From the NCBI RefSeq assembly GCF_000828635.1, contig NZ_AP012547.1, positions 2,170,001 to 2,234,000 on the forward strand: a DNA stretch of 64,000 bases. The letters run 5' to 3'. Below the pieces are notes generated by a model that saw only the letters and a program-made list of their open reading frames with translations, did no database searches and was not told where the DNA came from. The position numbers and the translations under genes are program-made. The stretch is from Sulfuritalea hydrogenivorans sk43H (lineage in GTDB: Bacteria; Pseudomonadota; Gammaproteobacteria; Burkholderiales; Rhodocyclaceae). This document shows positions 33,974 to 51,100 of this stretch, piece by piece (position 1 is the stretch's first letter; every line of letters begins with the position of its first letter).

Positions 33974-36900
33974 TTAGACGATGATCTGGAGCGCCGACTC
34001 CTGCAGCGCTTCCGCCGTTCCGGGCCGGCCGAACAGATAGCCCTGGTAGGCGTGACAGCCCTCGCTGGCAAGAAACTCGCGCTGCCCTTCGGTCTCCACG
34101 CCTTCGGCGATCACTTTCATTCCCAGGCTCTTGGCGAGGGCGATGATGGTGCGGGCAATCGCCGCATCGTTGCTGTCGGTGAGCACGTCGCGCACAAACG
34201 ACTGGTCGATCTTGAGTTGTCCCAGCGGCAGCCGCTTCAGGTAGGAAAGCGATGAATAGCCGGTACCGAAATCGTCGAGCGAGAAACTCACGCCTTCGGC
34301 CTTCAACGCCGTCATTTTGGCAATGATGTCTTCCATGTCATGCAGCAGCAGGCTCTCGGTCAATTCCAGCTTGAGCTTGTGCGGATTGGCGCCGGTCTCC
34401 TGAATCACCGAGAGCACATCCTCGACAAAGTCCCTCTGGCGAAACTGGCGGCTGCTGACATTCACCGCCACGGTGAGATGCGCCATCTCGGCGCGCTGAG
34501 CCCATTCCAGCAACTGGTTGCACGCAGCCTTCAGCACCCAGCGCCCCAGGGGCAGGATCAAACCATTGTCTTCGGCGAGGGGAATGAACTCGCCGGGCGC
34601 CACCAGGCCCCGTCGCGGATGCCGCCAGCGTACCAGTGCTTCGGCGCCCGTTACACGGCCTGCGCCATCGACCTGCGGCTGGTAGTGCAGCAGGAACTGG
34701 CCTTCGCGCACTGCATTGCGCATGTCCGCATTCATCTCCGCGCGGACCGCGACCACCGCCTGCATCGCCGGATCATAGAAGCGCATCGTATTGCGGCCCG
34801 CTGCCTTGGCCTGATACATGGCCGTGTCGGCACGTTTCATCAACTCCTCGACGGAAACCGACTGATCCCTGAACAGGGTGATGCCGATGCTGGAAGTGCA
34901 GTGATAGCTTCTTGTATCCCTTTCCACTCCGGCAAGGCTCAGGTCGAGCACATAGGGCCGGCTCAGCGCCGCCTGGATCTTGACGGCGATGCTCTCTGCC
35001 TGCATCGCCGCCAGGGTTTCCGCATCGAGGTCTTCGAGAATGACCACGAACTCGTCCCCCCCCAGCCGCGCCACGGTATCGCCTTCGCGTATGCAGGACT
35101 CCATGCGCCTGCCCACTTCCACCAGGAACTGGTCGCCGACATCATGCCCGAGCGTGTCGTTGAGGGTCTTGAAGTCGTCCAGGTCGAACAGCATCAGGGC
35201 GCCGTGACGTCCATGGCGGGCGCTGCTGGTCAGGGCCTGGCGCAAACGATCGAGCATCAGCCGGCGATTGGGCAACTGGGTCAGCGGATCATAGAAGGCC
35301 AGATTCCTGATTTCGTCCTCCGCCGCCTTGCGCAGCGTAATGTCGGAAAAGGTGCCGACGTAGTGGGTGATGGTTCCGTCGCTGGCCTTGACCGCCGTGA
35401 CGCTCAGCCATTCCGGATAGATTTCGCCATCCTTGCGCCGGTTCCAGATTTCACCGCGCCATGTTCCGTTCTTCTCCACGCTCTCCCACATCGCGTCGTA
35501 GAAAGCGGCCTCATGGCGCCCCGAACTGAGCAGGCGCGGGGTCCTGCCGACGGCCTCCTCGCTGCTGTAGCCGGTGATTTCGGAAAAGGCGTGATTGACG
35601 CGCAGCATCACCTTCTGAGCATCGGTGATCATCATGCCTTCCTGGGATTCGAAGGTGATGGCGGCAATGCGCTGGCTCTGCTCCGCCATCCTCCGCTCGG
35701 TAATGTCGTTCATGAAATTGACGGTGCACGGCTCGCCGGCAAACTCGATGAACGAAGACGACATCAGGATGTTGCGCTGCACCCCCGCTGCATCGCGGAA
35801 CACGACCTCGTATTCATGGAGTTCACCCTCGCGCTGCAAGGCTTCGAACCAGCGCATGCGCGCCTCGGCACTGGGCCAGTAGCCGGTCTCGATCGAGGTC
35901 CGCCCCACCATCTCTTCGCGGCTGCGCCCCTGCATCCTGGCAAAGGCCTCGTTGACTTCGACAAAGCGGGCATCCGCGATGCTCGTGATGGCGATTGCGA
36001 TCGGGCTGGTGTGGAAGATGATGACATCGCGCTGCTCGGCGCGGCGCCTGACATCCTCCGCCAGCAATCGCTCGGTGATGTCGAGGAAGCTGCCGCGGAT
36101 CAGCCGGCGGTCCGCCGAAGGCAGCCGGATCAGCCGCACTTCACAGCGCATGGTTTTGCCCTGGGCGTTGCACACCGTGCGCTCGATGGAAACCTGCTCC
36201 CCGGCCAGTGCCCGATCAAGCATTTCCCTGACGCTCTGCGCCGCGGTTTTCCCGTTGAACTGCTCGGGAGGATAAAAGCGCTCCGGCCCGGCCTTGAGCA
36301 ATTCCTCGCGACTGCAGCCAAAAAGCTTCTCCGCCTGGGCGTTGGCATCGACAAAGCAGCCCAGATCGACGTCGTGCACCACGATGGCATCGGGCGCCTG
36401 CTCCACCAATGTCCTGAAACGAGCCTCGCTTTCCCGCAGCGAACCGGTCATTTCGTGGGCCAGGCGCACGGCCCGATCACGCGTGGTGGCCAGCGACCAG
36501 GCAATGGCGAACAGCAGTAGGCTGGTCAGCAGCCCTCCGGCCAGAACCTGTGTCGAGCGCCCCATGTCGCCGCGCACCTCGAGCTCCGGCATGCTGGCAT
36601 AGCTCAGTGTCCACGGCCGCCCGCCGACGACCAAGGTTTCGCTGTGGACGAATTTCGCGGCGGACGGCCGTTCCTTCGTATCACTGCGATAAAACAGGTT
36701 TTCCGGACGTGGATCGACACCGTCATGGATGCTCAGGGAGACGTCGCGGGGGCTTCGCTTCATCAAGTCGGCAATCAGGGCAGGCATGCGGAACGGACTC
36801 AGCACGTAGCCGTAGACCTCGCCGCCGGACCTCGACGGCACCGGCAGCATCATGACGAACGACGGGACGGGATGCTGCGCGTCCATCTGCAGCCTGACCT

Positions 36901-37480
36901 TGCCGGTGATCACCGGCTGAGTGGCATTGCGCGCCCGCTCCAGGGCTTCGCGTCGCGCCGGATCCTGGAAAATATCGCGACCGAGTGCCTGCACATTGAG
37001 GCCGACGTAGGGCTCGGCATAAACGCTCACGACATGGCGCTCGCGTCGGCCCGGCGGCCGCACTGCATAATCGGCGATGCCGCTCTTGCGTACCTCGCGC
37101 ACCAGTGCGCCGAGTTCCTCGCCCGTCACGGCGCGCGCAAAAATCAGCGCCTGCATCGCCGGATAATCGGTCTCCAGCCTGAGTCCGGCGACGTAGCCGT
37201 GCCAATCCTCGCGCGTCACCTTGTCGCTGGCGGCAAACAGCGCGGCCGCCCCGCGCAGTGTCCGCATATAACCGGCGATGCCGGCATCGATGTCGGCCCG
37301 CATCTGGCTGACCCCGGCGTCAAATTCGGCGCGCATCCGGCGGTCGAGATCCTGCTGGGTGTAGCGCCAGGCAACCACCGTCAGCGCCAGCGAGCAGACC
37401 AGCGCGATCCAGGCCGGCCACAACCCGAAGCGGGATGGCGTGGCTGAATTGATCACGTCGGCAGGCTGGGCAGTCGGCAT
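33974..37480 (-). CDS. CHASE-PAS-PAS-PAS-GGDEF-EAL c-di-GMP protein (paralog 1)
   Basis: 1168 residues. Two membrane segments (AWIALVCSLALTVVAW and LLTSLLLFAIAWSL) enclose a periplasmic CHASE sensor (about 60-310). Three cytoplasmic PAS domains follow, then GGDEF with RLGGDEF near residue 807 and EAL with EALVRW near 947. Both active-site signatures are intact, including the EAL metal motif DDFGTGYSSLSYLKRLPLG, so it may make or break c-di-GMP according to signals. Closely related, also at DNA level in the GGDEF-EAL part, to the protein at 48176-51355. Confidence 0.94.
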   Translation of the reverse strand: MPTAQPADVINSATPSRFGLWPAWIALVCSLALTVVAWRYTQQDLDRRMRAEFDAGVSQMRADIDAGIAGYMRTLRGAAALFAASDKVTREDWHGYVAGLRLETDYPAMQALIFARAVTGEELGALVREVRKSGIADYAVRPPGRRERHVVSVYAEPYVGLNVQALGRDIFQDPARREALERARNATQPVITGKVRLQMDAQHPVPSFVMMLPVPSRSGGEVYGYVLSPFRMPALIADLMKRSPRDVSLSIHDGVDPRPENLFYRSDTKERPSAAKFVHSETLVVGGRPWTLSYASMPELEVRGDMGRSTQVLAGGLLTSLLLFAIAWSLATTRDRAVRLAHEMTGSLRESEARFRTLVEQAPDAIVVHDVDLGCFVDANAQAEKLFGCSREELLKAGPERFYPPEQFNGKTAAQSVREMLDRALAGEQVSIERTVCNAQGKTMRCEVRLIRLPSADRRLIRGSFLDITERLLAEDVRRRAEQRDVIIFHTSPIAIAITSIADARFVEVNEAFARMQGRSREEMVGRTSIETGYWPSAEARMRWFEALQREGELHEYEVVFRDAAGVQRNILMSSSFIEFAGEPCTVNFMNDITERRMAEQSQRIAAITFESQEGMMITDAQKVMLRVNHAFSEITGYSSEEAVGRTPRLLSSGRHEAAFYDAMWESVEKNGTWRGEIWNRRKDGEIYPEWLSVTAVKASDGTITHYVGTFSDITLRKAAEDEIRNLAFYDPLTQLPNRRLMLDRLRQALTSSARHGRHGALMLFDLDDFKTLNDTLGHDVGDQFLVEVGRRMESCIREGDTVARLGGDEFVVILEDLDAETLAAMQAESIAVKIQAALSRPYVLDLSLAGVERDTRSYHCTSSIGITLFRDQSVSVEELMKRADTAMYQAKAAGRNTMRFYDPAMQAVVAVRAEMNADMRNAVREGQFLLHYQPQVDGAGRVTGAEALVRWRHPRRGLVAPGEFIPLAEDNGLILPLGRWVLKAACNQLLEWAQRAEMAHLTVAVNVSSRQFRQRDFVEDVLSVIQETGANPHKLKLELTESLLLHDMEDIIAKMTALKAEGVSFSLDDFGTGYSSLSYLKRLPLGQLKIDQSFVRDVLTDSNDAAIARTIIALAKSLGMKVIAEGVETEGQREFLASEGCHAYQGYLFGRPGTAEALQESALQIIV

Positions 37481-37584
37481 CGGGAAGGGATCATATGGCG
37501 GCGACGGGAGATATTACACTGCCCGTTTCATCCCACGGCCATCGCCGCTGGCCGTTCGTCGGTTCCAGACGCCCGATCGGCGGT

Positions 37585-37606
37585 TGCGTTAACCGGCTAC
37601 CACCCG
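37585..37606. repeat. 22-bp motif shared with 51447-51468
   Basis: Nineteen of 22 bases are the same at 51447-51468. Both copies lie about 90-125 nt upstream of the start codons of the two CHASE-GGDEF-EAL genes. The core CCGGCTAC is conserved. Either a duplicated regulatory element or a REP-like unit. Confidence 0.5.
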
Positions 37607-37614
37607 CCTCGTAT

Positions 37615-38142
37615 TCAGCGCTCTAAGAGCCACTCCTCGCGCAGGATCGACACCAGTACCTGATCGACCCATTCTCCGCGTCGCCAGGCTACCTGACGTT
37701 GCACTCCCTCCTCGGAAAACCCGGCACGTGCATGAATGATTCTGGATGCAATATTCGGCGCAAGATAATTCGAGACGATCTTCCTCAATCCCAGGTCCCG
37801 GAAACCCCGGCTGACAAGCGAACGCAGAACGGCCGTACCCAATCCCCGATTCGACAGGCTGCGGTCGCCAAGCACGATAAAGAAGCGGGCGACGCCATTG
37901 CCGGGATCGTAGTCTTCCAGGCCGGCCATCCCGACAAATCGTCCCTCGGACTCGATTGCCAGCCTGCACCATGCCTCGCCGAGGACAAAGGCCAGCGCAT
38001 GGTGGAAATGAACCGGCCTCTGGCAGCGATCCTCAAGCCAGATCGTGACCTCCGGATCGGAGATGAACACTGCATAGGCGCCGACATCGTCGTATCGTGG
38101 AGCGCGCAGAAGAAATGAAGGTGTCACCGAGTCATCAGCCAT
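37615..38142 (-). CDS. GNAT acetyltransferase (RimJ/RimL-like)
   Basis: 175 residues. GNAT fold; the acetyl-CoA loop is LSNRGLGTAVLRSLVSRGF, preceded by GRFVGMAGLEDYDPGNGVA and followed by ASRIIHARAGFSEEG. This pattern fits RimJ/RimL-type N-acetyltransferases that act on amines or N-termini of small molecules and proteins. It is the last gene on the minus strand before the c-di-GMP gene and 162 nt after the NAD-synthase-like gene; it may belong to the unusual operon as a tailoring enzyme. Confidence 0.88.
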   Translation of the reverse strand: MADDSVTPSFLLRAPRYDDVGAYAVFISDPEVTIWLEDRCQRPVHFHHALAFVLGEAWCRLAIESEGRFVGMAGLEDYDPGNGVARFFIVLGDRSLSNRGLGTAVLRSLVSRGFRDLGLRKIVSNYLAPNIASRIIHARAGFSEEGVQRQVAWRRGEWVDQVLVSILREEWLLER

Positions 38143-38285
38143 TTCGATTTTCCGGATATCGGGAGGTACGCCAGGCAGGCCGCTCTTGCGACATCCGGGC
38201 CTGCCCGTAAAACTTTACACCGATCGGGGGTTTGCCAAGCCAATGCGTTCTCCGGTTCCATCCTCGACGACCCGAGCCACGGCAT
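38124..38285 (-). CDS. Possible 53-residue small protein between the NadE-like gene and the GNAT gene
   Basis: Not recognised and not certain to be a gene. ATG 38285 follows an AAGGA box at 4-5 nt spacing, 20 nt after the NAD-synthase-like stop, and the frame ends inside the GNAT start region, overlapping it by 19 nt. The product is MPWLGSSRMEPENALAW then a Cys-containing C-terminal half. Third-position GC is only about two thirds. Its place in a putative RRE-guided pathway makes it a possible substrate, but this is inference. Confidence 0.3.
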   Translation of the reverse strand: MPWLGSSRMEPENALAWQTPDRCKVLRAGPDVARAACLAYLPISGKSKWLMTR

Positions 38286-38304
38286 GCCATCCTTGCAGTC
38301 GGCG

Positions 38305-39201
38305 CTATTCGCATGACTCAAGACGGACTCCAAGCGGAAGGCCCCGAATCGTTCGCGCTGCGTCAATCAGCAGCAACAGCCTGTGCGCGGTTGCCACCGA
38401 CAACGCCGAGGATGCGGCGATGGCACCGGCATCCCGCTTGCCACCGGCAATGGCCTGCAAGCCGCGATCGATCCGGTCGAAAGTGAGTTCCGACCGGATC
38501 GCCCGCGCCAGTTCGATTTCTGCGGGACTGAAGTATCGCTGTGCGCCGACGGGCTTCTCATTCACCAGCCAGTAGGCAATATCTTCAAGGTCGCTCTCCC
38601 CATTCCAGTATCCCGCCGACGCCGGCTGGCGGATCACTTCCGGATCGCAGCCCAGAGCCGCGGCCAACTGATAGACCTGCGTCTTGTAAAGATGCGCGAG
38701 CGGCCCCAGATGCCAGATGCCGTCGCCGAGGCGAACGAAGAATCCGCATTCGACTTCAGTCCGGTTCGACGTTCCCAGAGTGATGTAGCCCCGGTCGTGA
38801 TAGGTCGAATAGACCACCGTGCGCAGAGAGTTTTTGGCTCGTCCGACATCAAGAAAAGCCGAGTTGCTGAAACCTTCGTGAGGGTCGGTTTGCATCAGCA
38901 TGTTGATCAAAGCCGGAGCCCATCCGGTCAGCGGAATCTCCACCAGCGGGATTCCCAATTCGGTCGCCAGCTTTCTGGCATTGCGCAAATGGCGAAGCTC
39001 CATATCGGCCTGAACCACCGTGAATAACTTGAGTCTTTCGGCCCCCAGCGCACGCACGGCCAGCCGTGCGGTCACATCCGAATCGATTCCCCCCGAAAGC
39101 CCCAGCACGGCTTTCTCTCCTGGCTGAATCCGGCTGGAAAGAAAGCCGACAATCCGTTCAATCTCGTTTGCCAACCGGTCCGGCGAGTATTGAAGGCTCA
39201 T
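38305..39201 (-). CDS. NH3-dependent NAD synthase-like amidating enzyme
   Basis: 298 residues of the adenine-nucleotide alpha-hydrolase (PP-loop) fold. PP-loop VLGLSGGIDSDVTARLAV, then LGTSNRTEVECGFF, VRLGDG and HLGPLAHLYKTQVYQLAAALG as in bacterial NadE; no glutaminase domain, so free ammonia would be the nitrogen donor. NadE would make NAD from nicotinate adenine dinucleotide. Alternatively it amidates another carboxylate. The ATG overlaps the upstream sirtuin-fusion stop by 4 nt; downstream of a sirtuin, local NAD supply is an attractive reading. Terminal part differs from housekeeping NadE. Confidence 0.82.
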   Translation of the reverse strand: MSLQYSPDRLANEIERIVGFLSSRIQPGEKAVLGLSGGIDSDVTARLAVRALGAERLKLFTVVQADMELRHLRNARKLATELGIPLVEIPLTGWAPALINMLMQTDPHEGFSNSAFLDVGRAKNSLRTVVYSTYHDRGYITLGTSNRTEVECGFFVRLGDGIWHLGPLAHLYKTQVYQLAAALGCDPEVIRQPASAGYWNGESDLEDIAYWLVNEKPVGAQRYFSPAEIELARAIRSELTFDRIDRGLQAIAGGKRDAGAIAASSALSVATAHRLLLLIDAARTIRGLPLGVRLESCE

Positions 39202-40859
39202 GAAAAAGTCGCTTTCGGCGGCGATGCTTCCAGAAGTCTGGCCAGAGCAGGCAGAACAAGTTCAGCCGGACCGTCGATCACGGTGTCGCCGGGAAATAGC
39301 GGTACGGCCAGCGAACCAAGTGTAAGAAAAACGCAGGGTACGCCGCGGGCGCGGGCAGAGGCAAGCAAGGCGCTGGCGGAAGAGACTGCGAGTTGCGAAC
39401 CGACGACCAGTATGGCTCCGCACTGCGCGGCCTTCTCCGTGGCGTCATGCCAGGTTGCCAGGCGAATGCTCTCGCCGAATGCGATTACCGCCGGTTTCAG
39501 CAAACCTCCGCACATCTCGCAACAGGGGCTCGCATGTCTCCAGAGGTCGGCAGCCGGCCATTCCGCCTCATGATCACAGGCAAGGCACCGAACCGAGAAA
39601 ATGGTTCCATGCAGTTCGCCGACCTGTCGGCTGCCAGCCGCCTGATGCAGTCCGTCGACATTCTGCGTAATCGTGGCAAGAATGTAGCCCGACGCTTCCA
39701 GCCCGGCGAGTGCCAAGTGTCCATTGTTCGGTTTGGCCCTGGCGGCGACCTCGCGAAACCGGGCGCACGCATCCCAATACAAGCTGCGGGATTCCGCATC
39801 CGCCAGAAACGCACCGTAGCTGTAACGGGAAGCAGGGACTCCTGGGGCCAGCCAATGGCCGGCGGTGTAATCGGGAATTCCGGATGCCGTGCTGACCCCT
39901 GCCCCCGTCAGCACAAGGGTAGCTCCCGCGGGTCTGGCTCGATCCAGAACATGAGCCGCATGCTGTACTCCCAAGTCAAGGCAAAACTGCCGCTCCTTCC
40001 CCAGTACCAGGATCAGGGCACTCCAGATACCGATGAACAGCGGCCCCATCAGCGGCGGGACGTTTTCCAATAGCGGCATGTGATTCCATAGCAGCCAGAT
40101 GGCTGCGGACAGCAACGCCGCCGTCGCTCCGACTTTCCACCCCTGGCGAAAGCCATTGAGGAAAACCGCCGAAGACGCAAAGATCGCCGGGGCTGCGGTG
40201 AACGCCCACAAGCCTGCTCCCTGGATCGAGAGCGGGTCGCCGCCGGCAACCGAATACAGGATCGCGGTCGCGGTCGCCACCAGCACTGAAGCAGCGGCTG
40301 CGCGACGGCACTTGAGGAACAAGCCGAGGGTCACGAAAAAAATCGCTACCGCCGGACCCGCCGATCCAAAGGAATTGGACCCAGGGGTATTGTTCGGCGA
40401 AGCAAGCCAGAAGTCGGCCCCGAGCGCCGAGAAGACGCCAAGCGAAAGCCAGATGCTGATGAGGCCCGGCAAAGCCAGCACCGGCATCCCAAGGCCATTG
40501 AGACGGGAAACCAAAGGACCGCGCATGGCGAGACAGGCCAGGACAGCCAAGCCCAGCAGAAACATCATTTGCGGGCCGCAGGAGAATGCCCCTCCCCAGG
40601 CGATGCCGAGGAGCGCGCAATCGTAGGCACCGAGCCCCTCCTTCCATTCCCATTCGCTTTGTGAAAAGAAGGGCTTGCCCAGCAGGATCGCCAGGGCCGC
40701 GCCGAATGCGGCGGCGGCGGCGCTCCATGGCGCTATCGCGGCAATCGCCACAAAGACCAGCAGACCGTGAGTCGGTCGATCGAGGAACGCGACGTGGGCA
40801 AAGCTTTTGAGCCAGGCCTGAGCGGCGTCCTGCAATAGGCGGCCTGTCATTCTTGCCAT
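39198..40859 (-). CDS. Urea-transporter-like membrane domain fused to a sirtuin
   Basis: 553 residues. Residues about 25-288 are strongly hydrophobic with around ten helices and resemble the urea-transporter (SLC14-like) family: GLGAYDCALLGIAWGG and a LNGLGMPVLALPG repeat-type motif. Residues about 295-553 are a Sir2 NAD-dependent deacylase: GAGVSTASGIPDY (319-331), TQNVDGLH (398-405), catalytic His417 in ELHG, and a zinc module with Cys425, Cys428, Cys447 and Cys450. The Arg that normally follows GIPDF is Thr332, an unusual change near NAD. I know of no common architecture of this kind. Preceded 3 nt by the decarboxylase stop. Confidence 0.78.
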   Translation of the reverse strand: MARMTGRLLQDAAQAWLKSFAHVAFLDRPTHGLLVFVAIAAIAPWSAAAAAFGAALAILLGKPFFSQSEWEWKEGLGAYDCALLGIAWGGAFSCGPQMMFLLGLAVLACLAMRGPLVSRLNGLGMPVLALPGLISIWLSLGVFSALGADFWLASPNNTPGSNSFGSAGPAVAIFFVTLGLFLKCRRAAAASVLVATATAILYSVAGGDPLSIQGAGLWAFTAAPAIFASSAVFLNGFRQGWKVGATAALLSAAIWLLWNHMPLLENVPPLMGPLFIGIWSALILVLGKERQFCLDLGVQHAAHVLDRARPAGATLVLTGAGVSTASGIPDYTAGHWLAPGVPASRYSYGAFLADAESRSLYWDACARFREVAARAKPNNGHLALAGLEASGYILATITQNVDGLHQAAGSRQVGELHGTIFSVRCLACDHEAEWPAADLWRHASPCCEMCGGLLKPAVIAFGESIRLATWHDATEKAAQCGAILVVGSQLAVSSASALLASARARGVPCVFLTLGSLAVPLFPGDTVIDGPAELVLPALARLLEASPPKATFS

Positions 40860-40862
40860 GAA

Positions 40863-42248
40863 TCAGAACTTCGCGCCCTTGGCCTTCAGTCGCGCCGGAA
40901 CACGGTCCATGTCGAAGATGTCGCTGCGCGTCTCACGCCGCCTGATCTCTTCCACGCCACGCGGACCCAGCAGCACAACGGCAGGACGCGGCTGGATGAA
41001 CTGCATCGACTGCGTGATGCAATAGGCGCCGACATTCGAGATCATCAATGGGGAGCCCAGCGACAGGTTCGGCAGGACGGCACGTTCGCGCAACACATCG
41101 ACCTGCATGCATAGCGGACCGAACACGGCAACCGGCTTGGCTCCGGCCGCCTCCTGCATATCGCGGCTCGACGCCGCATTGATGCGATGGTCATACCAGT
41201 AGGCGGTCGGCAGCAGATTCACGCCGGCGTCCACGATCACCGCCTCACCCTGCCCGGCGATGTTCTTGCGCGCCACTACGGAGCACGCCAGCCGAAACGC
41301 GGCATCGACCAACGCGCGGCCGGGTTCCAGCACCATTGTCGGCCGCGCGCCGAACGCCTTGCGCGCCTTGCTCAACGGGCCGACAATGGCCTCGGCAAAC
41401 GGTGCCAGAAATTGCCCGCTGGATCCCGAGCCGCCCGCCACATCGAAGCCCGGTTTCAAGCGATTGTTTGACGGGTAGCCTCCGCCGAAATCAGCAATGG
41501 CGGGCTCCAAACCCATCGTCCTGGCCGCCCTCGCGACGCCGATCAAGACCTGCGCCGCACGCGAATAGATTTCCGGATTGGTCTGGAAGGTGCCGGAATG
41601 ATTGTGCAAGGCTTCGAAGTGCAGCGATTTTCCGGCCTTCTTGATCCGATGCAAAGCCTCAAGCGCTTCGCCATTGTCGGCATTCACGCCGAACTTCGTC
41701 CACGACTGCCGGCCATGCTGAAAGTTGATGCGCAATCCGGTGCGGGCGGCAATCCCCAGATTCCGTGCAGCCGAAATCAGCATATCCAGTTCATCAAAGC
41801 CATCGACATTGATCAGAGCCTCTTCCTTGATGGCACGGGCCAACTCTTCCGGCCTTTTGTACGGGCCGTTGAAGATGATCTTGCCGCCAGGAACCCCGAG
41901 TGAGCGCGCCAGATCGTATTCCATGCCCGACACCACCTCCGCCCACGCGCCTTCCTGATGCAGGATGGAACAGACCGCCGGCAGATAATTGGTCTTGTAC
42001 GAGTAGGCAACCACGGTATCGATTCCGGGCGCGGCAAAGGTGTCGCGAAAGGAACGATATTGGGCGCGAAGCATCTTCTCCGACAGAATGAAAAGGGGCG
42101 AGCCGAACTCTCGCAGCAGCCCCTTGACATCGCCTATTTCGTCCAGGGCCGAATCCGCGGAGCTGATGTCGACCGTTCGATGCTTCTGCATGCCGCGCGA
42201 CGTAATCAGTTCGAGCCGTGGCGCCGTGTAGGGGACCCGCTTAGTCAT
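40863..42248 (-). CDS. Fold-III PLP-dependent amino-acid decarboxylase (LysA/ODC family)
   Basis: 461 residues from ATG 42248, overlapping the ATP-grasp stop by 8 nt; a TTG two codons upstream is less likely. Alanine-racemase-like barrel with PLP Lys85 (AYSYKTN), glycine loop DFGGGYP, phosphate-binding EPGR (about 308-311) and C-terminal active-site Cys380/Asp384 (GPLCMQVD). All catalytic residues are present, so it should decarboxylate a basic or diamino acid such as lysine, ornithine, arginine or diaminopimelate. Substrate cannot be told. Its place beside a ligase suggests it produces an amine or trims a conjugated amino acid. Confidence 0.88.
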   Translation of the reverse strand: MTKRVPYTAPRLELITSRGMQKHRTVDISSADSALDEIGDVKGLLREFGSPLFILSEKMLRAQYRSFRDTFAAPGIDTVVAYSYKTNYLPAVCSILHQEGAWAEVVSGMEYDLARSLGVPGGKIIFNGPYKRPEELARAIKEEALINVDGFDELDMLISAARNLGIAARTGLRINFQHGRQSWTKFGVNADNGEALEALHRIKKAGKSLHFEALHNHSGTFQTNPEIYSRAAQVLIGVARAARTMGLEPAIADFGGGYPSNNRLKPGFDVAGGSGSSGQFLAPFAEAIVGPLSKARKAFGARPTMVLEPGRALVDAAFRLACSVVARKNIAGQGEAVIVDAGVNLLPTAYWYDHRINAASSRDMQEAAGAKPVAVFGPLCMQVDVLRERAVLPNLSLGSPLMISNVGAYCITQSMQFIQPRPAVVLLGPRGVEEIRRRETRSDIFDMDRVPARLKAKGAKF

Positions 42249-44406
42249 ATGCAATCTCGCCGCGATTGACGAACGCCGCCATGGTCGAGGCGGCAGCCGG
42301 GATCTCCTCCACCGTCCTCATGAAAATGGCGCCCTGGATCGGACCCGTATTTCTGCCAGCGGGTACGGGCGGACGCTCCATTGCGGCGAGCAGGAGCTGG
42401 CGTGGCAAGTTGCTCCCCGCCATCCCGGAAAATCCGATCCAGCCCGGGAAGCGCGGATTAATTTCGATCAGTTCCAGCCGTTCCGTCACCGAGTCGCGAA
42501 TGAACTCGACGTCGGCGGGCCCTGCCCAGGCGACCTTCCGGAACATCTCGGCCAGATCCGCGACAGCCTGCGCCAGCGGTACCGAAGTCGCCGCCCACGT
42601 CTTGCCGCGTTCGCACATCACCAGCTTTTTAAGCGCCATCGAATCGATCAGGTTTCCGTTGCCATCGCATACGACGCCTATGCCGAACTCCTCGCCAAAC
42701 AATGAAGGCTGGGCGAGTAACCGAGTCTCCCCCTCCGCCTTGAAGCGCATCCACGCCATCAAGGCCTGCTTCAGGGAAAACAGGCGGGCAGCACCGGCCA
42801 CAAGCCCCTTGAGCATCAGCGGGCTGCCGAACCGGTCCCAGGCACGAATCAGATCGGAGCGGGTCTTGATCAGCATCGTTTCCGGATACTCGAACCCGCT
42901 CCACTGATGCCGTCCGATCAGTTCGGCAAGGCCCAGTTTGCCCAGTTTTCGCCTTGCGGCGGCACTGGGCAGCAAGGTCCTGATTCCGATTCGATCAAGC
43001 TCTGAAGCGATACGCCGATAGCGATCGATTTCGAAATCAAGATTGGGAATCACAAGGTCCAGGCCGCGCTTCTTCTTGATGGCTGCGAGTCGATCAAGAA
43101 GCATTGCGTCACCCTGCCCCTCATTTGCCTCGCCGTGCTCGAAACCGATCCGGCAGCACGCGTCAAAGAGTTCCGAACGAAACAGGCCGGTATCATTCGG
43201 CGTGTAGGCAAGTCCGACCAGACGTCCCACCTCCGGCGCGGCCCTGAGGCAGCGAGCCACACCGAGGCCCGGTTGCGTCAGCTCAAAGGCCGAAATGCCG
43301 GTGACGCCGACTGCCAGATCGCCTCGTTGCCTGCGCATTGCCTTGAACCGCGGCACCGGCGCACTTCCGGAACGCTTGAGCTCGCGAACGGCGGCGATGG
43401 GCACCGCCATCTCCTGAACATCACGGGCATACATCGAGCCCGCTCGCCCCTTGCTGCGTGATGTCGTTCCGGGAGACAGGATTTCTTTCACCAGGGCGAC
43501 CGGCATGTTGGCGCGGGCAAACTCGGTGAGCAGCACCCATGCCGGGAAACGGCAGTTGATCTCGATCAGGTAGAACTGTCCGCCGCTGGCTGCGCGAACG
43601 AATTCCAGTTCCAGCGGCCCTTGCCAATGAAGCTTGCTCAGCAGGCGCAAGGCGATGCGTTTCAGCACGGGATCGTCGATGACGCCGCCGATCACGCTCT
43701 TGCCGCGCTGATTGGTGCCCAACTTGCGCGCCGCAACCATCGAGAGGCAACTGCCGTCGCGCCGTGCGACGGCCGCCACCATGTGCTCGCTGCCTTCGAT
43801 CGCCTCCTGCAGTAGCACCCCGCCGCCCCATTTTGCAGCGAGAATCTCCGCTTCGAATACGGCTTGCTCCCGGTTATAGACCTTCTTGGCGCCTGCCACG
43901 GTTCCCTTGACCCAGAGCGGGTAGCCAAAGCTGTCGGCATGCAGGGCAACCGTCGACAAGTCCCGCACATGCACGGTGCGCGGCGTGACGACATCATTGG
44001 CATAGCAATACGCGCTGAGATTGATCTTGCTGATCGCCTGCACGTCCCCGGGGTCCGGCAGCAGCGTTCCGATTCCGGCGCGGGCCAGACGACTCGACAA
44101 GCGCGAGATGACCGGCACCTCAAGGTCAAGGCAAGGGACAAGAACATCGATTCGATGTTCCTGGTGAAGCGCCAGAAGCCGGTGAAGGACGGCGTCGTCT
44201 CCCTGGGCGATGGGCGGGATCAGATGCAGGCAGTTGGCAACGCCGGGCGTCCAGCCGCCGGTGGCAAGCGCATCGTAGACCAGGCCGTCGATCCGCAGCG
44301 ATCCCCGCCATCCGCGGCGCAAGGCCCGGGCAACGGCCAGCCCGGGCTCCGGATTGTCGAGTCCGGACCAGCCGGTCAGCGCCACATGGATCTCAGGCGT
44401 TGTCAT
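42241..44406 (-). CDS. Tandem ATP-grasp ligase (two catalytic units)
   Basis: 721 residues from ATG 44406, which overlaps the PqqD-like stop by 4 nt. Two homologous halves, about 1-360 and 365-721. Each has a pre-ATP-grasp Rossmann-like part, an ATP Lys in a matching block (WVKGTVAGAKKV and MLKGLVAGAARL) and a metal site LIEIN followed by RFPAW or RFPGW. Both units therefore look active. ATP-grasp enzymes of this group activate a carboxylate as acylphosphate and couple it to an amine or thiol, as in CPSase large subunit or peptide ligases. Substrates unknown. Confidence 0.85.
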   Translation of the reverse strand: MTTPEIHVALTGWSGLDNPEPGLAVARALRRGWRGSLRIDGLVYDALATGGWTPGVANCLHLIPPIAQGDDAVLHRLLALHQEHRIDVLVPCLDLEVPVISRLSSRLARAGIGTLLPDPGDVQAISKINLSAYCYANDVVTPRTVHVRDLSTVALHADSFGYPLWVKGTVAGAKKVYNREQAVFEAEILAAKWGGGVLLQEAIEGSEHMVAAVARRDGSCLSMVAARKLGTNQRGKSVIGGVIDDPVLKRIALRLLSKLHWQGPLELEFVRAASGGQFYLIEINCRFPAWVLLTEFARANMPVALVKEILSPGTTSRSKGRAGSMYARDVQEMAVPIAAVRELKRSGSAPVPRFKAMRRQRGDLAVGVTGISAFELTQPGLGVARCLRAAPEVGRLVGLAYTPNDTGLFRSELFDACCRIGFEHGEANEGQGDAMLLDRLAAIKKKRGLDLVIPNLDFEIDRYRRIASELDRIGIRTLLPSAAARRKLGKLGLAELIGRHQWSGFEYPETMLIKTRSDLIRAWDRFGSPLMLKGLVAGAARLFSLKQALMAWMRFKAEGETRLLAQPSLFGEEFGIGVVCDGNGNLIDSMALKKLVMCERGKTWAATSVPLAQAVADLAEMFRKVAWAGPADVEFIRDSVTERLELIEINPRFPGWIGFSGMAGSNLPRQLLLAAMERPPVPAGRNTGPIQGAIFMRTVEEIPAAASTMAAFVNRGEIAYD

Positions 44407-44678
44407 TTCTGCTCCAGCAAGTCCATCAACTGCAACTCGCCAACCAGTGCCAAAACGTCTTTCCGGGCGGTATCGGGATCGACCTCGAAGATTGTTGTCA
44501 GGCCCTTCGCCAACGCATCCGCGTCGGCCCCGCGCTTCAGCGCCTTGAGGCTTGCCCAAGCCGACTCGTTGCACGCACAGATCGTTCCGCTCTGCGTATC
44601 GAGCATCATGCCGCCCTTGCCTTCCGCATCGGTTTCGAGGCGCACGTGCGGCCGCAGTTTCAGTTTTGCACTCTTCAT
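44403..44678 (-). CDS. PqqD-like protein (RiPP recognition element)
   Basis: 91 residues of the PqqD/RRE winged-helix family: LDTQSGTICACNESAWASL (the LN-x-T/S-A-W pattern), then helices with DALAKGLTTIF and VLALVGELQLMDLL. In known pathways this domain captures the leader of a ribosomal peptide for a modifying enzyme. It overlaps the TPR gene stop and the ATP-grasp start by 4 nt each. No radical-SAM enzyme and no clear precursor peptide are nearby. Confidence 0.85.
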   Translation of the reverse strand: MKSAKLKLRPHVRLETDAEGKGGMMLDTQSGTICACNESAWASLKALKRGADADALAKGLTTIFEVDPDTARKDVLALVGELQLMDLLEQK

Positions 44679-47600
44679 GGTTTCCTGACGGCGGCCAGTC
44701 CCTTTAATGCGTCGGGATACTGCGGTGAAATCCTGAGAGCCCGATCGAAATATATCTGTGCTCCGGCAGCATCCTTGAGCGCGAGTCGCACATAGCCGAG
44801 ACCCGTCAATGCATCGATGTTAACAGGGTTGTCGGTCACAGCGGCAGTGAACAGTTGATCTGCCCTGGCATGAGCACCCAGCCGATGGTGCGCCCAAGCC
44901 AGCGTTGTTCCCGCCGTATACTCAATCGTCCAGGATTGATTGGTACCCGGAATCGGGACAGTATCGACAATGGGCAACAGCTTTTCCGGCTCCAACTTCA
45001 TCGCGGCCTCAAGCAACGGCAGGGCATCCCGATACCTGCCCTGCCGGAACAAGGCAAAACCCTTGCCGCGGGCTATGTTCGGATCGGTCGCACCGACCCG
45101 CAATGCAGCATCGAAGCGCTTGATGGCGCCGGCATTGTCTCCCGCAAAATACAAGCCCCAGGCGAGACTGGGCAGCGCCGTGCGGGCAGCCCTGGGCGGG
45201 AGTCCGAGGCGGTCGAACGCCGGATCGATGTAGGCTGGAGCAAGGGTCGCGGCGGTCGCGGCCTTGTGTGCCGCAGTGTCCTCATCGCCGAGGCCGAGGG
45301 CCGTCCGCGCGAGCAGGAACTGAATGTCCGACGAATAGGGATAGACCTTCTCGCCGACGCTCAGTACTTCCTGCGCCTGCGGGTAGGCCTTGCCATCGAT
45401 CAGTTTCAAGCCAGGTACGGTGTAGGACGTCACGCCCTGATACGGCGCAAGCGAATAGGCAGTGACCAGCGCTCTTGCGGCAGCGGAGTACTGCTTGCGC
45501 TCGATCGCCAGATAGCCGAGCCCCTTGTGCGAAAGGTAAGCCCTTGGCATCTTCGCCACGATTGCCTGGAAAGCTTTCTCCGCCCCGTCGTAATCCTTGG
45601 TGTAGAGAGCCAGCCAAGCCAGGCCGTCGTCGATCAGCCAGATAAACTCCGGGGCGCTTTCCTTGCGCGCATTTTCGAACTTCGTCCGGGCCTGATCGAA
45701 CTGTCCTGCTTCGAGGTGGCCCCAAGCCTGCTGATAGAGGACAAGCTCGGCCCTGCGCGCTGCAATGCGTCCGCTTTGCGAAGAATAATAGTCCGCATCG
45801 ATCCTCAAGGCCTTGTCGAAGGCATCGCGTGCAGCCCTGGTGTTCCCCATTGCCAACAACGTCCAGCCGCGCCCATCCTCGGCTGCCGGATTCCTGGCCG
45901 CGGCAGCCGCATTCAGTTTCGCCTCGAACGCATTCAGAGCCTTCTTGTAGTCCTCCTTGTAATAGGCATCCCATCCATCCTTGACCAAAACGGTCTTGCG
46001 GAACTGGATGGCTGCCAGACCGGATTGGGCGGATGCATGATTGGGGAGCGCCCTCAGCGCGGTCTTGAAGCTTCGTTCGGCATCGGCGAACTGCTCGCTG
46101 CCCATCTGGATCCAACCGAGGCCTGCATGCGCATCCCCGGTGTCGCCGCCCCTGATCGCCGCTTCAAAGGACTTTCTGGCGCCCGGCTGGTTCTTGAGCG
46201 CCAGTTGCGACCAGCCGCTGCCCAGCAGCCCGCCCACCGCGGTGCCCCCCGCCGCGACGTATTGTTCGAATCGCTTCGCTGCAGCCGCCGCACCTCCGGC
46301 GTAATAGAGCGCCCAGCCGATCGACAGCAGGGCCGTCTGCTTCGCCTGCAAACCAAGCGGTACCTTGTCGAAAACCGGATCGATATGGAACGGCGCCAGT
46401 TCCGCGGCCTTTGCCAGGCTCGTACCCGCACCCTGTTCCTCGTTCAGACCGGACTGCGCCCGCGCCAGCAGATAATGGATGTCGGCTGAAGATGGGTAGA
46501 TACGCTCGCCCCGCATCAGGATGTCCCTGGCGTCCCTGAACTGTCCGGCATCGATCAGTTTCGCTGCCGGAATGGTGTAGGAAACCAGCAACTGATAGGG
46601 ATTCAGCAGCAAGGACCTCGACACATGCCTGATCGCTGCACTGTAGTCCTTGCGTTCCAGGGCTACCCGCCCGAGTCCCATCTCGGAGAGATAGGCATCC
46701 TTGTTCGATGCAAGAACCGCGGCAAAGCCCTTCTCCGCCGCCGCATACTCTTTCCTGAAGAAGGACACCCAGGCCAGACCATCCTGAATCAGCCATTGCA
46801 GGTCCGCCGGCGTCTGGCTGCGGGCTTTGCCGAACATCGAGACAGCCTCGTCGAAACGCCCCGCATCGAGCAGGATCCAGGCCTTGCGGTAGTTACCCAG
46901 AAGCCGGCCCTCGGCAGTGGCAAGGCCGCTGACCGAGTAGAAAAACTGCGGGTCCATGGCGATTGCGGCGCGGAACGCGTCCCTGGCTTCCCCATTCCTG
47001 CCCAAGGCGAGCAGAGTCCAGCCGCGGCCGTCCTCCGCCGAGGGATTCCTGATCGCCGCGGCCTGCTTTCGTTTGCCATCGAACAGGCTCAGAGCCTTGT
47101 CGTACAAACCCCTGAAGTAAGCTTCCCAGCCCTCCTTGACGATGCGGGTCCTGAGAATCTGCAGGGCGGCGATTCCCGCCTGCGCCTCGGAATTTCCCGC
47201 GTCGGTCGCCAGCACCTTGCGAAACTCCGCCTCGGCTTCTTCAGCCCGACCTTCCGCAAGCAACGCGTTGCCCAAGCCGATCCGGTAGGCGATCACATTC
47301 GGGTGCCGCGCTATCAGGGTCTCGTAAATCCGCCGACTGGAAGCCGGATCGTTCATGGCGGCCAGAACTGACGACAACAGGGAGTTGAGCCCCGGACTGT
47401 CGCTGGTCACTTCCATGCCCCCCAGGACCTGGCCAAGAGCCACCTTGAGTTCACCGCGGGCCAGCGCGATACGCGCCAGGCCGTCGCGGCAGAAAAAGCA
47501 TTTCGAATCACGGGCCAGACCGCGTTCGAATTCCTGCCTGGCCCTAGCCAGATCACCGCGATTGAAAGCCAGCCAGCCCAAGCCGACCGCTGCGTCAGAC

Positions 47601-48064
47601 CTTACCGCGCCTCCCGGATCCATTTCCTCATCCTCGAAATGCCGGGCCGCCGCGATGTAATTGCCCCGCTTCATCGCCTGCCATCCCTTCAGGTCGTGAA
47701 CCAGCGGCCGCTGCCAGGCCACCGTGACGGCTTCCGCCTTTTTGAGATACTTCTCGGCCTCCGCCAGATTTCCCGTCTTGGTATGGACCCAGGCCAAGCC
47801 CAGCAACGCATCGAAGTCATTGGGCCAGCTTCTTTCAAGCTTGCGAAAGCTGTTCATCGCCGAACCGTAGTCGTCGAGCATGAACTGGCTCCAGCCCAGA
47901 ATGCCCAGGTCGTCAAGACTGGCGCTTCTTGCCGCAAGGTCCCGCGCCTCGACAAACCTTTTTCTGACGAACGACTCCTCCGCGCCGGCCCAGATTGACG
48001 ACGAAACGCATAGCAACAGCAATAGAGCAAATGCCCTACGCATTTGCAGACTGTTGATGATCAT
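44675..48064 (-). CDS. Secreted TPR-repeat protein with large internal duplication
   Basis: 1129 residues from ATG 48064, which has GGAG at 5 nt; a longer frame to 48106 lacks one. Signal peptide (MRRAFALLLLLCVSSSIWAGA) after a seven-residue lead. The rest is almost all TPR helices. Two units of about 300-340 residues, around 304-604 and 688-990, repeat each other with blocks such as EDGRGWTLLA, IRLIDDGLAW-type WLI(D/Q)DGLAW and YP(S/Y)SSDIQ-like motifs. It probably scaffolds a periplasmic complex. First gene of the unusual operon; 111 nt separate it from the c-di-GMP gene upstream. Confidence 0.88.
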   Translation of the reverse strand: MIINSLQMRRAFALLLLLCVSSSIWAGAEESFVRKRFVEARDLAARSASLDDLGILGWSQFMLDDYGSAMNSFRKLERSWPNDFDALLGLAWVHTKTGNLAEAEKYLKKAEAVTVAWQRPLVHDLKGWQAMKRGNYIAAARHFEDEEMDPGGAVRSDAAVGLGWLAFNRGDLARARQEFERGLARDSKCFFCRDGLARIALARGELKVALGQVLGGMEVTSDSPGLNSLLSSVLAAMNDPASSRRIYETLIARHPNVIAYRIGLGNALLAEGRAEEAEAEFRKVLATDAGNSEAQAGIAALQILRTRIVKEGWEAYFRGLYDKALSLFDGKRKQAAAIRNPSAEDGRGWTLLALGRNGEARDAFRAAIAMDPQFFYSVSGLATAEGRLLGNYRKAWILLDAGRFDEAVSMFGKARSQTPADLQWLIQDGLAWVSFFRKEYAAAEKGFAAVLASNKDAYLSEMGLGRVALERKDYSAAIRHVSRSLLLNPYQLLVSYTIPAAKLIDAGQFRDARDILMRGERIYPSSADIHYLLARAQSGLNEEQGAGTSLAKAAELAPFHIDPVFDKVPLGLQAKQTALLSIGWALYYAGGAAAAAKRFEQYVAAGGTAVGGLLGSGWSQLALKNQPGARKSFEAAIRGGDTGDAHAGLGWIQMGSEQFADAERSFKTALRALPNHASAQSGLAAIQFRKTVLVKDGWDAYYKEDYKKALNAFEAKLNAAAAARNPAAEDGRGWTLLAMGNTRAARDAFDKALRIDADYYSSQSGRIAARRAELVLYQQAWGHLEAGQFDQARTKFENARKESAPEFIWLIDDGLAWLALYTKDYDGAEKAFQAIVAKMPRAYLSHKGLGYLAIERKQYSAAARALVTAYSLAPYQGVTSYTVPGLKLIDGKAYPQAQEVLSVGEKVYPYSSDIQFLLARTALGLGDEDTAAHKAATAATLAPAYIDPAFDRLGLPPRAARTALPSLAWGLYFAGDNAGAIKRFDAALRVGATDPNIARGKGFALFRQGRYRDALPLLEAAMKLEPEKLLPIVDTVPIPGTNQSWTIEYTAGTTLAWAHHRLGAHARADQLFTAAVTDNPVNIDALTGLGYVRLALKDAAGAQIYFDRALRISPQYPDALKGLAAVRKP

Positions 48065-48175
48065 GTCTCCAGAAAGTATCCACAATGAATAATCACACGA
48101 CGCCATGGGAACATTTCACCGCGGAGGGCTGAACACTGTTGCTTCAACAGGCCCTGCTGCATGAACTTGCCTTGG

Positions 48176-51100
48176 TCAATCGTCCGCCTTGCATCCTTTC
48201 AGAAGGTCATCCGCCGTGCCCGGCCGGCCGAACAGGAATCCCTGATAGGCCTGGCAACCCTGCCGGGCGAGAAACTCGCGCTGCCCCTGGGTCTCCACCC
48301 CTTCGGCGATCACACCCAGGCCGAGGCTCTGTCCGAGGGCAATGATGGTGCGGACGATCGCCGCGTCGTTGTTGTCGTCGAGCACATCCTGCACAAAGGA
48401 CTGGTCGATCTTGAGCTGTCCCAGGGGCAGGCGCTTCAGGTAGGAAAGTGACGAGTAGCCGGTACCGAAATCGTCGAGAGAGAAACTCACGCCTTCCCCC
48501 TGCAGCGCCGCCATCTTGGCAATCATGTCCTCCACGTCATGCAGCAGCAGGCTCTCGGTCAGCTCCAGCTTGAGTCGCGCCGAGCTGGCGCCCGTATCCC
48601 TGAGTATCGCGAGCACATCGTCGACGAAGTTCTTCTGCCGGAACTCGCGACCGCTGACATTGACCGCCATCGTGAGATGGGAGGACTCCTCTCGCTGCCC
48701 CCACACCGCCAGTTGCTGGCATGCGGTTTCCAGCACCCAGCGGCCCAGTGGCAGGATCAGGCCGTTGTCCTCCGCCAGGGGGATGAAATCGCCGGGCGGA
48801 ACCATTCCCCGGCGCGGATGTTGCCAGCGCACCAGCGCCTCGACGCCAGTCACGAGCCCGGCCCCATCCACCTGCGGCTGGTAGTGCAACAGGAACTGCC
48901 GGTCGCGCACGGCTGATCGCAAGTCCGAATTCAGGATCGCGCGCGCGGCCACCGCTGCCTGCATTTCCGGATCGAAGAAACGCAAGGTGTTGCGTCCCGC
49001 CGCCTTGGCCTGATACATCGCCGTGTCGGCGCGCTTGAGTAACTCATCGGCTGACAGCGATTGATCGCGAAACAGGGTAATGCCGATACTCGAGGTACAG
49101 TGATAACTTCGCGTGTCGCGGTCGTCAGCATAGCTCGCATGAAGGGCATAGGGCTGGTTCAGGGCCGCCTGGATCTTGACCGCCACAATCTCGGCCTGCG
49201 TTGCTGCCGAGGCTTCGGCATCGAGGTCTTCGAGGATCACGACGAATTCATCGCCACCGAGGCGGGCTACCGTATCACCTTCACGTATGCAGGATTCCAT
49301 GCGCGCGGCGACTTCAACCAGAAACTGGTCGCCGACGTCATGCCCCAGCGTGTCGTTCAGAGTCTTGAAGTCATCCAGGTCGAACAGCATCAGGGCACCG
49401 TGGCGCCCGCGCCGCGCGCTGCTGGTCAGGGCCTGACACAGGCGATCCAGCATCAAGCGCCGATTGGGCAGGCCTGTCAGCGGGTCATAGAAGGCCAGAT
49501 TCCTGATTTCCGTCTCTGCCGCCTTGCGCAGGGTGATATCGGTAAAGGTTACGACCACCCCAACGATCTTTCCATCGCGCCGCAGCGGATGTGCTCCATA
49601 GCGCACCGGAAATCCGAGGCCATCGGCACGAAAGAAAACCTCATCTTCCACCCAGATATCCTCGCCGGTTTCGAGCACTTTGTAGATCGGGCATTCATCG
49701 GCAGGGTAGGCGGAACCGTCGGGTTTCTGGAAATGCGTCAGCCCGTGCATTTCGTGCCCGAGCAGATCCCGCTCGTCGGCCCATCCCAGCATGCGCACGC
49801 CGGCTGGATTGCAGAAAGTGCAGCGACCCTCCCGATCGATGCCGTAGATCGCCTCGCCGGTGGAATTCAACAACAACCGGACTCGTTCTTCGCTGTGCCG
49901 TTGTGTCTCCTGTTCCTGCGCGCGGGCCTTTTCCGCCAGCCTGCGTTCGGTGATATCCACGAAGCTGCCACGCACCAGTCGGCGTCCGACGGCAGGCAAA
50001 CGCACCAGCCGCATCTCGCAATGCAAGGACTGGCCTTGGGCATTGAGAAACGAACTTTCCATCGTAATATGGTCGCCCGCCAGCACACGGTCAATCATCT
50101 CCTGCAGATTTTCCGATGCAAACTTGCCATTGAAGATGCCGGGCGGCAGGAATCTTTCAGGGCCTCCGGCCAGAAGCTCTTCGCGGGGACAGCCGAACAA
50201 CTGTTCGGCCTGGGAATTCGCCTCGATGAACCGCCCCAAATCGACGTCATACACGGCGATGGCGTCGGGTGCCTGTTCCACCAGAACCCTGAACTGCGCC
50301 TCGCTTTCCCGCAGGGAAGCCGTCATCCTGCCCGCCAGGCGCACGGCGCGGTCGCGATTGGTGGCAAGCGACAAGGCAATGCTGAACAGCAGCGCGCTAC
50401 CCAACAAGCCTCCCAGCAGTACTTTTGTCGGACGCGACGTGTCCCCACGCGCTTCAAGCGCCGGTCGGCTGGAATAGGTCAAGGTCCATGGCCGCCCACC
50501 CACCACGGCTTTCTCGCTGAAGCCGAATCGCGCGGGAGGCCCAATCTGTTCCGGGTCGCTGCTGTACAGCAGGTTTTCCTCGCGAGCCACCGTGCCGTCG
50601 TGGATGCTCAGGGAGATGCCGCGGGGATTCCGCTTGAGCAGATCCGCCATCAGCGCCGGCATGCGCACGGGACTCAGCACATAGCCAAAAACCTCCTTCC
50701 CCGACCCCGTCATCACCGGCAGATACATGATGAAGGACGGCACCGGATTCTGGTCGTCGATCAGGAGCGTGACCCTGCCGGTGATCATCGGCTCGCCGGC
50801 GCCGCGCGCCCGTTGCATGGTCTCGCGGCTTTCCGGGTTCTGCCACATGTCGAGTCCGATTGCCTTGTTGTTGAGTCCGACGCGTGGTTCGGCATAGACA
50901 TTCACCACGTAATGCTCGCGGCGTCCCGCGGGGTGCGCGGCGAAATCCGGCATACCGTTGTTTCGCATCGAGCGGACCAGCGCACCAAGTTCCGACTCGG
51001 CAACGGAACGGGAAAAAATTACGGCCTGGATTCCCGGATAGTTGGTTTCCAGCTTGAGGCCGGCCACATAGTCGCGCCAATCCTTGCTCGTGACCCTCTC

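Follow-up and report, generated by a model that had tools for sequence, protein, structure and literature searches.

A recurrent gene set with a urea-transporter-fold channel fused to a sirtuin or an M23 domain in Sulfuritalea hydrogenivorans sk43H and other bacteria

In rhizoferrin synthesis, the decarboxylase FslC/FigC is partnered with an ATP-using, amide-forming synthetase, and in butirosin synthesis the alanine racemase (AR)-fold decarboxylase BtrK has a carrier-bound glutamate as its substrate. BtrJ is the ATP-grasp partner of BtrK, and a second acyl addition in butirosin synthesis is later removed by a cyclotransferase. In pearlin synthesis, amino acids are assembled at the C-terminal end of a carrier peptide and then cut off, according to the available part of PMC9303977. 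Here we describe an operon of Sulfuritalea hydrogenivorans sk43H that is partly like these pathways. It was analysed in a stretch of 64,000 nt (the window) from a genome consisting of one contig of 3.8 Mb. All operon genes are on the minus strand, from position 48106 down to 37615. They encode a TPR-repeat protein, a PqqD-like domain protein, a double ATP-grasp ligase, a pyridoxal 5′-phosphate (PLP)-dependent decarboxylase, a urea transporter (UT)-fold channel fused to a sirtuin, a NadE-like NAD synthetase and a GNAT acetyltransferase.

The decarboxylase shares with FslC/FigC (7kh2; available part of PMC7857480) the Met after the catalytic Cys, and T327 and Y331 are mostly kept. The partner of FslC/FigC is a non-ribosomal-peptide-synthetase-independent siderophore (NIS) synthetase, whereas an ATP-grasp ligase is found here. 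Unlike in butirosin synthesis, no acyl carrier protein was noticed here, though no search aimed at carrier proteins was made. Pearlin synthesis, as far as the available part of PMC9303977 describes it, resembles the pathway proposed below in amide-tethered building on a carrier and in proteolytic release. It differs in its tRNA-dependent PEARL ligases and its encoded carrier peptide, and no conserved peptide was found here. The channel has the complete fold of urea transporters (UT/SLC14), with Z of 26 in form A and 36 in form B, the two forms of the gene set defined below. It differs from them in its fusion to a sirtuin or M23 domain, the loss of the LP-box threonines and its operon context.

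The gene set recurs in many bacteria. One genome per species was scanned with the ATP-grasp alignment, which gave at least 496 relatives, of which the top 80 were retained as loci L043–L122. These loci were chosen by ATP-grasp similarity alone, counts are given only where the contig extends far enough, and the iterated hidden Markov models used for locus annotation were built on the very loci that they score. A PqqD-like gene lies upstream of the ATP-grasp gene in 76 of 78 testable loci, the exceptions being L073 and L085. The PLP decarboxylase gene is located downstream of the ATP-grasp gene in all testable loci (77/77), and a UT domain follows the decarboxylase in 69/69. PqqD, ATP-grasp, PLP decarboxylase and UT are the conserved core. 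The preliminary description of the window had proposed to ask whether the genes lie apart in relatives; the core stays together wherever it occurs in the loci examined.

Two forms of the set were found. A sirtuin lies after or behind the UT domain in 23 loci, and all 23 have two ATP-grasp units (form A, that of the window). An M23 domain lies behind the UT domain in 43 loci as a UT::M23 fusion, and none of the 43 has two ATP-grasp units (form B). No locus has both a sirtuin and M23, and three UT loci end before either. Form B is a sister system with the same core and order. It differs from form A in its one ATP-grasp unit, in M23 in place of the sirtuin, in a small TPR protein and, in some lineages, in a barrel-like protein. 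No description of the gene set or of UT::sirtuin or UT::M23 fusions was found in the open-access full text of PubMed Central, subscription papers lying outside the search. The domains are each known. The system, the two fusions as its parts and the switch between forms A and B appear undescribed. In L159–L161 and L058, a UT-like half was seen in frame with TPR-like repeats, in L159–L161 downstream of the UT::M23 gene, which is a possible third architecture.

The distribution among close relatives agrees with a dedicated gene set. Genome G117 of the same genus has the identical seven-gene order at 52–73% identity. The seven-gene order was found in 7 of the 80 loci; of these, L047 appears to be G117. 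In a sample of 199 family genomes, a match to the double ATP-grasp spanning both units was found only for the window genome and for G117, and the four other sampled genomes of the genus had no match. Eight further family genomes had a one-unit match (32–37%), all eight with PqqD and decarboxylase genes adjoining, and UT::M23 was present in the five whose stretch continues. The 38 matching family genomes include 28 others whose matches were all weak (E 1e-11 or worse) and were taken as other ATP-grasps. Among the scanned genomes, from which the window's own record may be absent, the nearest relative at the locus was a Sulfuritalea metagenome-assembled genome, with 80% identity in the first ATP-grasp unit. 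The ratio of nonsynonymous to synonymous substitution rates (dN/dS) between the window and L043 was 0.03–0.21 over the seven genes, these ratios being rough with dS above 1 throughout. Judged from these sequence comparisons, the seven genes are under purifying selection. In a census started from the UT domain, UT was above the cut-off in 55 of 398 genomes of the phylum and in none of 14 control genomes, and a decarboxylase of the operon type lay within 1.5 kb of UT in 23 of the best 30 of the 60 UT matches in this phylum sample.

We tentatively propose that the operon is a dedicated line of biosynthesis and export, spread horizontally, with steps of ligation, decarboxylation, amide cleavage and export. 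We consider this plausible but somewhat short of probable. The chemistry proposed for the mostly intact active sites, the fusions and the changed pore would be as follows. In the cytosol, the ATP-grasp ligase, guided by the PqqD-like recognition domain, would join an amino acid through an amide to an acceptor, which may be a carrier or peptide or a small acid. The FslC-like decarboxylase would strip the alpha-carboxylate from the amide-linked amino acid. The UT-fold channel may be rewired for a different, probably larger neutral amide, and its cytosolic C-terminus would bear the amide-cleaving enzyme, namely the sirtuin (an NAD-dependent deacylase) in form A and the zinc M23 peptidase in form B. 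This tethered enzyme would free or deprotect the product at the cytosolic mouth of the channel. The product would exit through the channel to periplasmic TPR partners and, beside some loci, outer-membrane-barrel-like ones. In form A, the second ATP-grasp unit may add an acyl group that the sirtuin later removes, while NadE would supply NAD and GNAT would carry out N-acylation. A step of release or deprotection is proposed chiefly because the sirtuin and M23, two amide-cleaving enzymes that are unrelated, take the same position behind the channel. Two ligase units occur only with the sirtuin, which suggests a link between the second ligation and the sirtuin. NAD-dependent tailoring, proposed in the preliminary description, would apply to form A only, for form B has the M23 metallopeptidase in the sirtuin's place (43/80 loci). 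Like that description, we infer an amino-acid or peptide conjugate as the product class.

The decarboxylase gene (40863..42248, minus strand; frame 40863–42254, ATG at 42248) encodes an FslC-like AR-fold protein with PF02784/PF00278. Its closest solved relative is the N-citrylornithine decarboxylase 7kh2 (158 bits). BtrK is a further relative (71 bits), named L-glutamyl-[BtrI acyl-carrier protein] decarboxylase in the PDB. The catalytic Cys, the PLP Lys and a Met directly after the Cys are present in 80/80 rows. In N-citrylornithine decarboxylase, Met replaces the acidic residue beside the catalytic Cys, which in ordinary decarboxylases binds the side-chain amine, and the M355 change of FigC is named among those fitting an N-acylated substrate (both from the available part of PMC7857480). 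The decarboxylase of the operon probably acts on an acylated amino acid, because Met follows its catalytic Cys as in that enzyme. Of the specificity-helix residues named in the same source, the T327 column is Thr in 75/80 (Ser in 5) and the Y331 column is Tyr in 78/80 (Phe in 2). A list of AR-fold decarboxylases whose substrates are modified or bound amino acids, BtrK among them, is given in the accessible part of PMC8503589. The amino-acid decarboxylation first suggested is supported as to the enzyme family, while the free diaminopimelate or ornithine type is not. The curated LysA model gave 190.3 against a cut-off of 297.9, and Met stands where LysA has an acidic residue after the Cys. The FslC model (190.6 against 500) and the dCO2ase_PEP1 model (92.2 against 478.45) were also below their cut-offs.

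The ATP-grasp gene (42241..44406, minus strand) lies in the open frame 42241–44574 and matches PF15632 and ATP-grasp_3. By family, its units are ligases of the amide-forming type. The two halves are 30% identical to one another, which bears out the two units in one chain read from the sequence at first. The main catalytic residues are conserved in the majority of N and C halves in a set of 28 form A rows, in which L033 and L047 count one locus twice. The Glu of ExN was present in 25/28 N halves and 27/28 C halves; the K236 column was weaker, with 25 and 16 of 28. The NCBIfam label is "carbamoyl phosphate synthase-like", all matches being below the cut-off, and no graspetide-type NCBIfam match was listed.

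The PqqD-like protein (44403..44678, minus strand), of the peptide or carrier recognition type, matches PF05402 with 37.7 bits (cut-off 23.4). No PqqA- or PqqE-type family was found by Pfam in the operon, the check being confined to its seven genes. Fusions of TetR_N to PqqD were seen in two form B loci (L088:9186–10001 and L112:252–1079).

The channel gene (39198..40859, minus strand) encodes a protein whose residues 1–307 align to the UT fold and residues 295–544 to sirtuins. Pfam PF03253 covers the first UT half only (65.5 bits, residues 9–140), and the second half is visible in the structure model. The AlphaFold model has a predicted local distance difference test score (pLDDT) of 91.5 and a predicted template modelling score (pTM) of 0.88. 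It shows a complete UT fold (Z 26.4, 286 residues, root-mean-square deviation (rmsd) 3.5 to 9j22) followed by a sirtuin domain (Z 28.6), so that the fusion read early on from the sequence is one real protein. UT and sirtuin are the only folds listed for this model, which excludes no other fold. The UT::M23 protein of L107 was modelled similarly (93.1 and 0.88), with a complete UT fold (Z 35.9, 301 residues, rmsd 2.6 to 8xd7) and a LytM-like domain behind it (Z 14.4).

The LP-box Thr residues of both boxes line the urea filter of UTs. These threonines were found in 0/22 form A rows at both boxes and in 0/42 form B rows at the first box (8/42 at the second), and they were kept in 7/7 stand-alone UTs. 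The loss of the filter threonines makes urea doubtful as the cargo, so the urea channel of the preliminary description holds for the fold and is doubtful for the substrate. In both forms, the mid-loop is net negative and the termini are net positive. Together with the N-in/C-in topology of UTs, these charges indicate that the sirtuin and M23 domains are probably cytosolic. The window sirtuin has intact GAG and QNxD motifs, catalytic His and two CxxC. Among 22 aligned rows, the A of GAG, the Q, the N and the His are kept in 21, with L079 as the exception, and the other tested columns, zinc Cys included, in all 22. L068, with an extra hydrolase domain and a degenerate sirtuin, was dropped from alignment A3, which holds both L033 and L047. 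The His and Asp columns of M23 are invariant in 42 rows; L095, cut at a contig end, was dropped from alignment A4. The L068 protein (L068:13528–16215, Kiloniellales) is a UT::SIR2 fusion with a dienelactone-hydrolase-like domain.

Several observations weigh against the biosynthesis-and-export line. No conserved precursor peptide was found among short frames of 18–75 amino acids on the operon strand near 89 loci (L034–L122). The 2379 short frames were clustered, and 13 clusters spanned at least four loci; 85 of the 86 frames in these lay inside another frame of at least 150 amino acids and are therefore shadow frames. The TetR::PqqD fusions could mean that the PqqD domain senses a ligand or peptide and does not present it. 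In the decarboxylase, the columns of H357 and R387, which bind citrate in FslC, and of T330 are not kept (Ile 75/80, Gln 77/80 and Trp 78/80), so the acyl part must differ from the citrate of FslC. The Gln of the first pore helix is a UT pore residue; it is kept in 21/22 form A rows (the window has His), 5/42 form B rows and 7/7 stand-alone UTs, and given the form A pore Gln a urea-like cargo is possible. The topology charge signal is weak, with 1.23 basic against 1.05 acidic residues at the form A N-terminus. Sirtuins normally act on protein acyl-lysine, and the usual sirtuin motif is PDFR. The window sirtuin has PDYT, and all 22 rows have PDY and a non-Arg residue (Thr 15, Val 4, Ile, Leu and Pro 1 each). 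The degenerate sirtuins in L079 (Colwellia) and L068, with His changed to Tyr, suggest that cleavage is not always needed. The rule that all 23 sirtuin loci have two ATP-grasp units rests on few, perhaps one, evolutionary events, as the trees described below are compatible with a single origin and the rule may reflect one event, not 23.

The sirtuin and GNAT genes could instead form an acylation switch. GNAT would acylate and the sirtuin deacylate pathway enzymes or the channel, as in PatZ/CobB, with NadE feeding the switch and the UT protein acting as an ordinary solute channel under its control. The tethering of the sirtuin to the channel, the catalytic residues intact in 21/22 rows and the GNAT gene near 12/23 sirtuin loci are consistent with this. 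We regard it as unlikely, for a lysine switch cannot explain M23 in the sirtuin's place in the 43 form B loci. GNAT was not found near the other 11/23 sirtuin loci (contig ends included), it is present in the form-B-like loci L159 and L161, where no sirtuin was found, and NadE is not conserved.

A ribosomally synthesized and post-translationally modified peptide pathway is a further candidate. PqqD would bind a leader, the ATP-grasp and decarboxylase would modify a ribosomal precursor encoded elsewhere, and M23 or the sirtuin would trim it. PqqD acts as a peptide chaperone in pyrroloquinoline quinone synthesis according to the available part of PMC8939145, and the release of pearlin amino acids from a carrier peptide C-terminus (available part of PMC9303977) points the same way. 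The screen of the 89 loci, which did not extend to precursors elsewhere in the genome, revealed no conserved short frame, and the ATP-grasp is without a listed graspetide-type match. Such a pathway is thus rather improbable.

Uptake of urea-like or amide nitrogen, in which UT imports, the carbamoyl-phosphate-synthase-like ATP-grasp carboxylates and the hydrolase domains split the amide, seems very unlikely. The UT fold in both forms, the form A pore Gln and the below-cut-off NCBIfam label fit it. The LP-box threonines lost in both forms do not, the decarboxylase and PqqD are ill-suited to catabolism, and neither a urease nor a biotin-carrier gene was noticed next to the loci, although no search was aimed at them. 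Chance assembly of unrelated genes, to which only the mixed family names lend support, is refuted by the core order conserved across eleven named phyla, the seven-gene order in G117 and 7/80 loci, and the dN/dS values, and its probability is negligible.

The biosynthesis-and-export line can be stated more specifically as a new, phylum-spanning assembly line. An amide-tethered, decarboxylated amino acid would be released by an enzyme fused to its own export channel, a urea transporter turned to a new use. In evolution, M23 and sirtuin would have replaced one another as the releasing enzyme, together with the change between one and two ATP-grasp units. This fuller version is more doubtful. If this holds, an unknown biosynthetic system would include many bacterial members of the "urea transporter" family, fusions of UT to a sirtuin or to M23 would be a new way of coupling product release to export, and sirtuins would gain a role in small-molecule synthesis. 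The rule of a sirtuin with two ligase units and a peptidase with one makes this chemistry directly testable.

The 80 loci come from eleven named phyla. The 29 loci with two ATP-grasps belong to Pseudomonadota (24), Rokuibacteriota (2), Omnitrophota (2) and Nitrospinota (1). The other 51 belong to Pseudomonadota (22), Cloacimonadota (12), Bacteroidota (4), Planctomycetota (3), Fidelibacterota (2), Myxococcota (2), Armatimonadota (1) and Elusimicrobiota (1), with four unplaced. In a decarboxylase tree of 80 rows and the genome's LysA, 24 form A rows formed one clade (SH-aLRT support 100, the sole support measure of this quick search). The root is unsure, the branch of the LysA outgroup being very long. 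L033 was left out of the decarboxylase and ATP-grasp trees, as it appears to be the contig of L047 again. The form A clade mixes Pelagibacter, Rokubacteria, Nitrospina, Colwellia and Rhodocyclales, a pattern expected of horizontal spread. Spread by plasmids was not supported, as 6 of 72,556 plasmid records matched, the best with 28% identity over 87% of the query.

The two Omnitrophota decarboxylases are outside the form A clade. In these loci (L078, L090), the ATP-grasps, UT and sirtuin are all separate genes; the functions combined in the fusions thus also occur unfused. A quick tree built from 118 units hinted at an independent origin of two ATP-grasps with a sirtuin in Omnitrophota. When 78 of these units were placed in a tree under a mixture model, the Omnitrophota units grouped with form A (support 97), and a constraint of the N halves with one Omnitrophota gene was not rejected (p-AU 0.737). 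We claim no second origin.

The list of open frames bears out the coordinates and spacings in the preliminary description, with six translationally coupled genes and a GNAT gene after 162 nt. Overlaps of 4 nt were found between the TPR and PqqD genes, between PqqD and ATP-grasp (likely start ATG at 44406, overlapping the PqqD stop) and between UT and NadE, and an overlap of 8 nt between ATP-grasp and decarboxylase. The decarboxylase and UT genes are separated by 3 nt. The family calls also hold, with Pfam matches above the cut-off for 7/7 proteins, NCBIfam matches and, for the second UT half, the structure model. Internal promoters had been named as evidence against one operon. In a sigma-70 consensus scan of 37400–48400, no site was detected on the minus strand, and the sole site was on the plus strand, with 1.8 expected by chance. 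The genome also encodes a full-length NadE (540 amino acids), a LysA with a CESGD motif and another sirtuin. The NadE, decarboxylase and sirtuin of the operon are thus not sole housekeeping copies, in keeping with the dedicated operon of unnamed kind proposed at first.

The NadE-like gene (38305..39201, minus strand) encodes an ammonia-dependent NAD synthetase as a second copy (TIGR00552, 108 bits, cut-off 63.65; 2e18, 89.6 bits). Aligned to 2e18, it has the P-loop SGGIDS, and the full-length equivalog models are below their cut-offs (for example PRK13980, 125 against 255). The NAD-making partner suggested earlier is present as a gene; it is a lineage add-on, found in 7/23 sirtuin loci, all seven betaproteobacterial by their record titles. 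Contig ends lower this count and that of GNAT. Four other betaproteobacterial loci (L048–L050, L060) have a second sirtuin downstream. A full-length glutamine-type NadE lies some kb upstream on the opposite strand in an Omnitrophota form A-like locus (L078:4720–6387, minus strand) and is outside the NadE count. The GNAT acetyltransferase (37615..38142, minus strand) matches PF13302 with 60.7 bits.

The first gene of the operon (44675..48064, minus strand; open frame 44675–48106, in-frame Met at 48064) matches TPR families in Pfam. Its product is probably periplasmic, as suggested by an N-terminal signal-like segment read by eye. The PEP-CTERM model PrsT gave 159.2 bits against a cut-off of 312.2, which does not place the protein in the PEP-CTERM/XrtA group. 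A signal-peptide-like protein of about 300 amino acids is encoded beside 12 form B loci and the form A locus L059, and all 13 homologues end in Trp. Outer-membrane barrels often end in Trp, and these proteins may be outer-membrane-barrel-like; the L107 member has no Pfam match. A lipoprotein-like protein of about 925 amino acids was seen near the TPR genes of Cloacimonadota form B loci (L082:7792–10572 and seven other loci). A histidine kinase cluster in 28 loci was judged generic. A known anti-phage defence system was rejected, as PADLOC gave no family at E 0.001 for the 7/7 proteins.

Two similar CHASE-PAS-GGDEF-EAL proteins of cyclic di-GMP (c-di-GMP) signalling are encoded on either side of the operon, at 33974–37480 and 48176–51355 (minus strand). 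Read by eye, a DJ-1/PfpI-like frame at 51513–52103 (plus strand) seems to have lost its C-terminus and runs into a ribbon-helix-helix-like frame, a possible gene remnant or frameshift. A bacterial small signal recognition particle RNA was annotated at 15190–15288 (minus strand, 81 bits).

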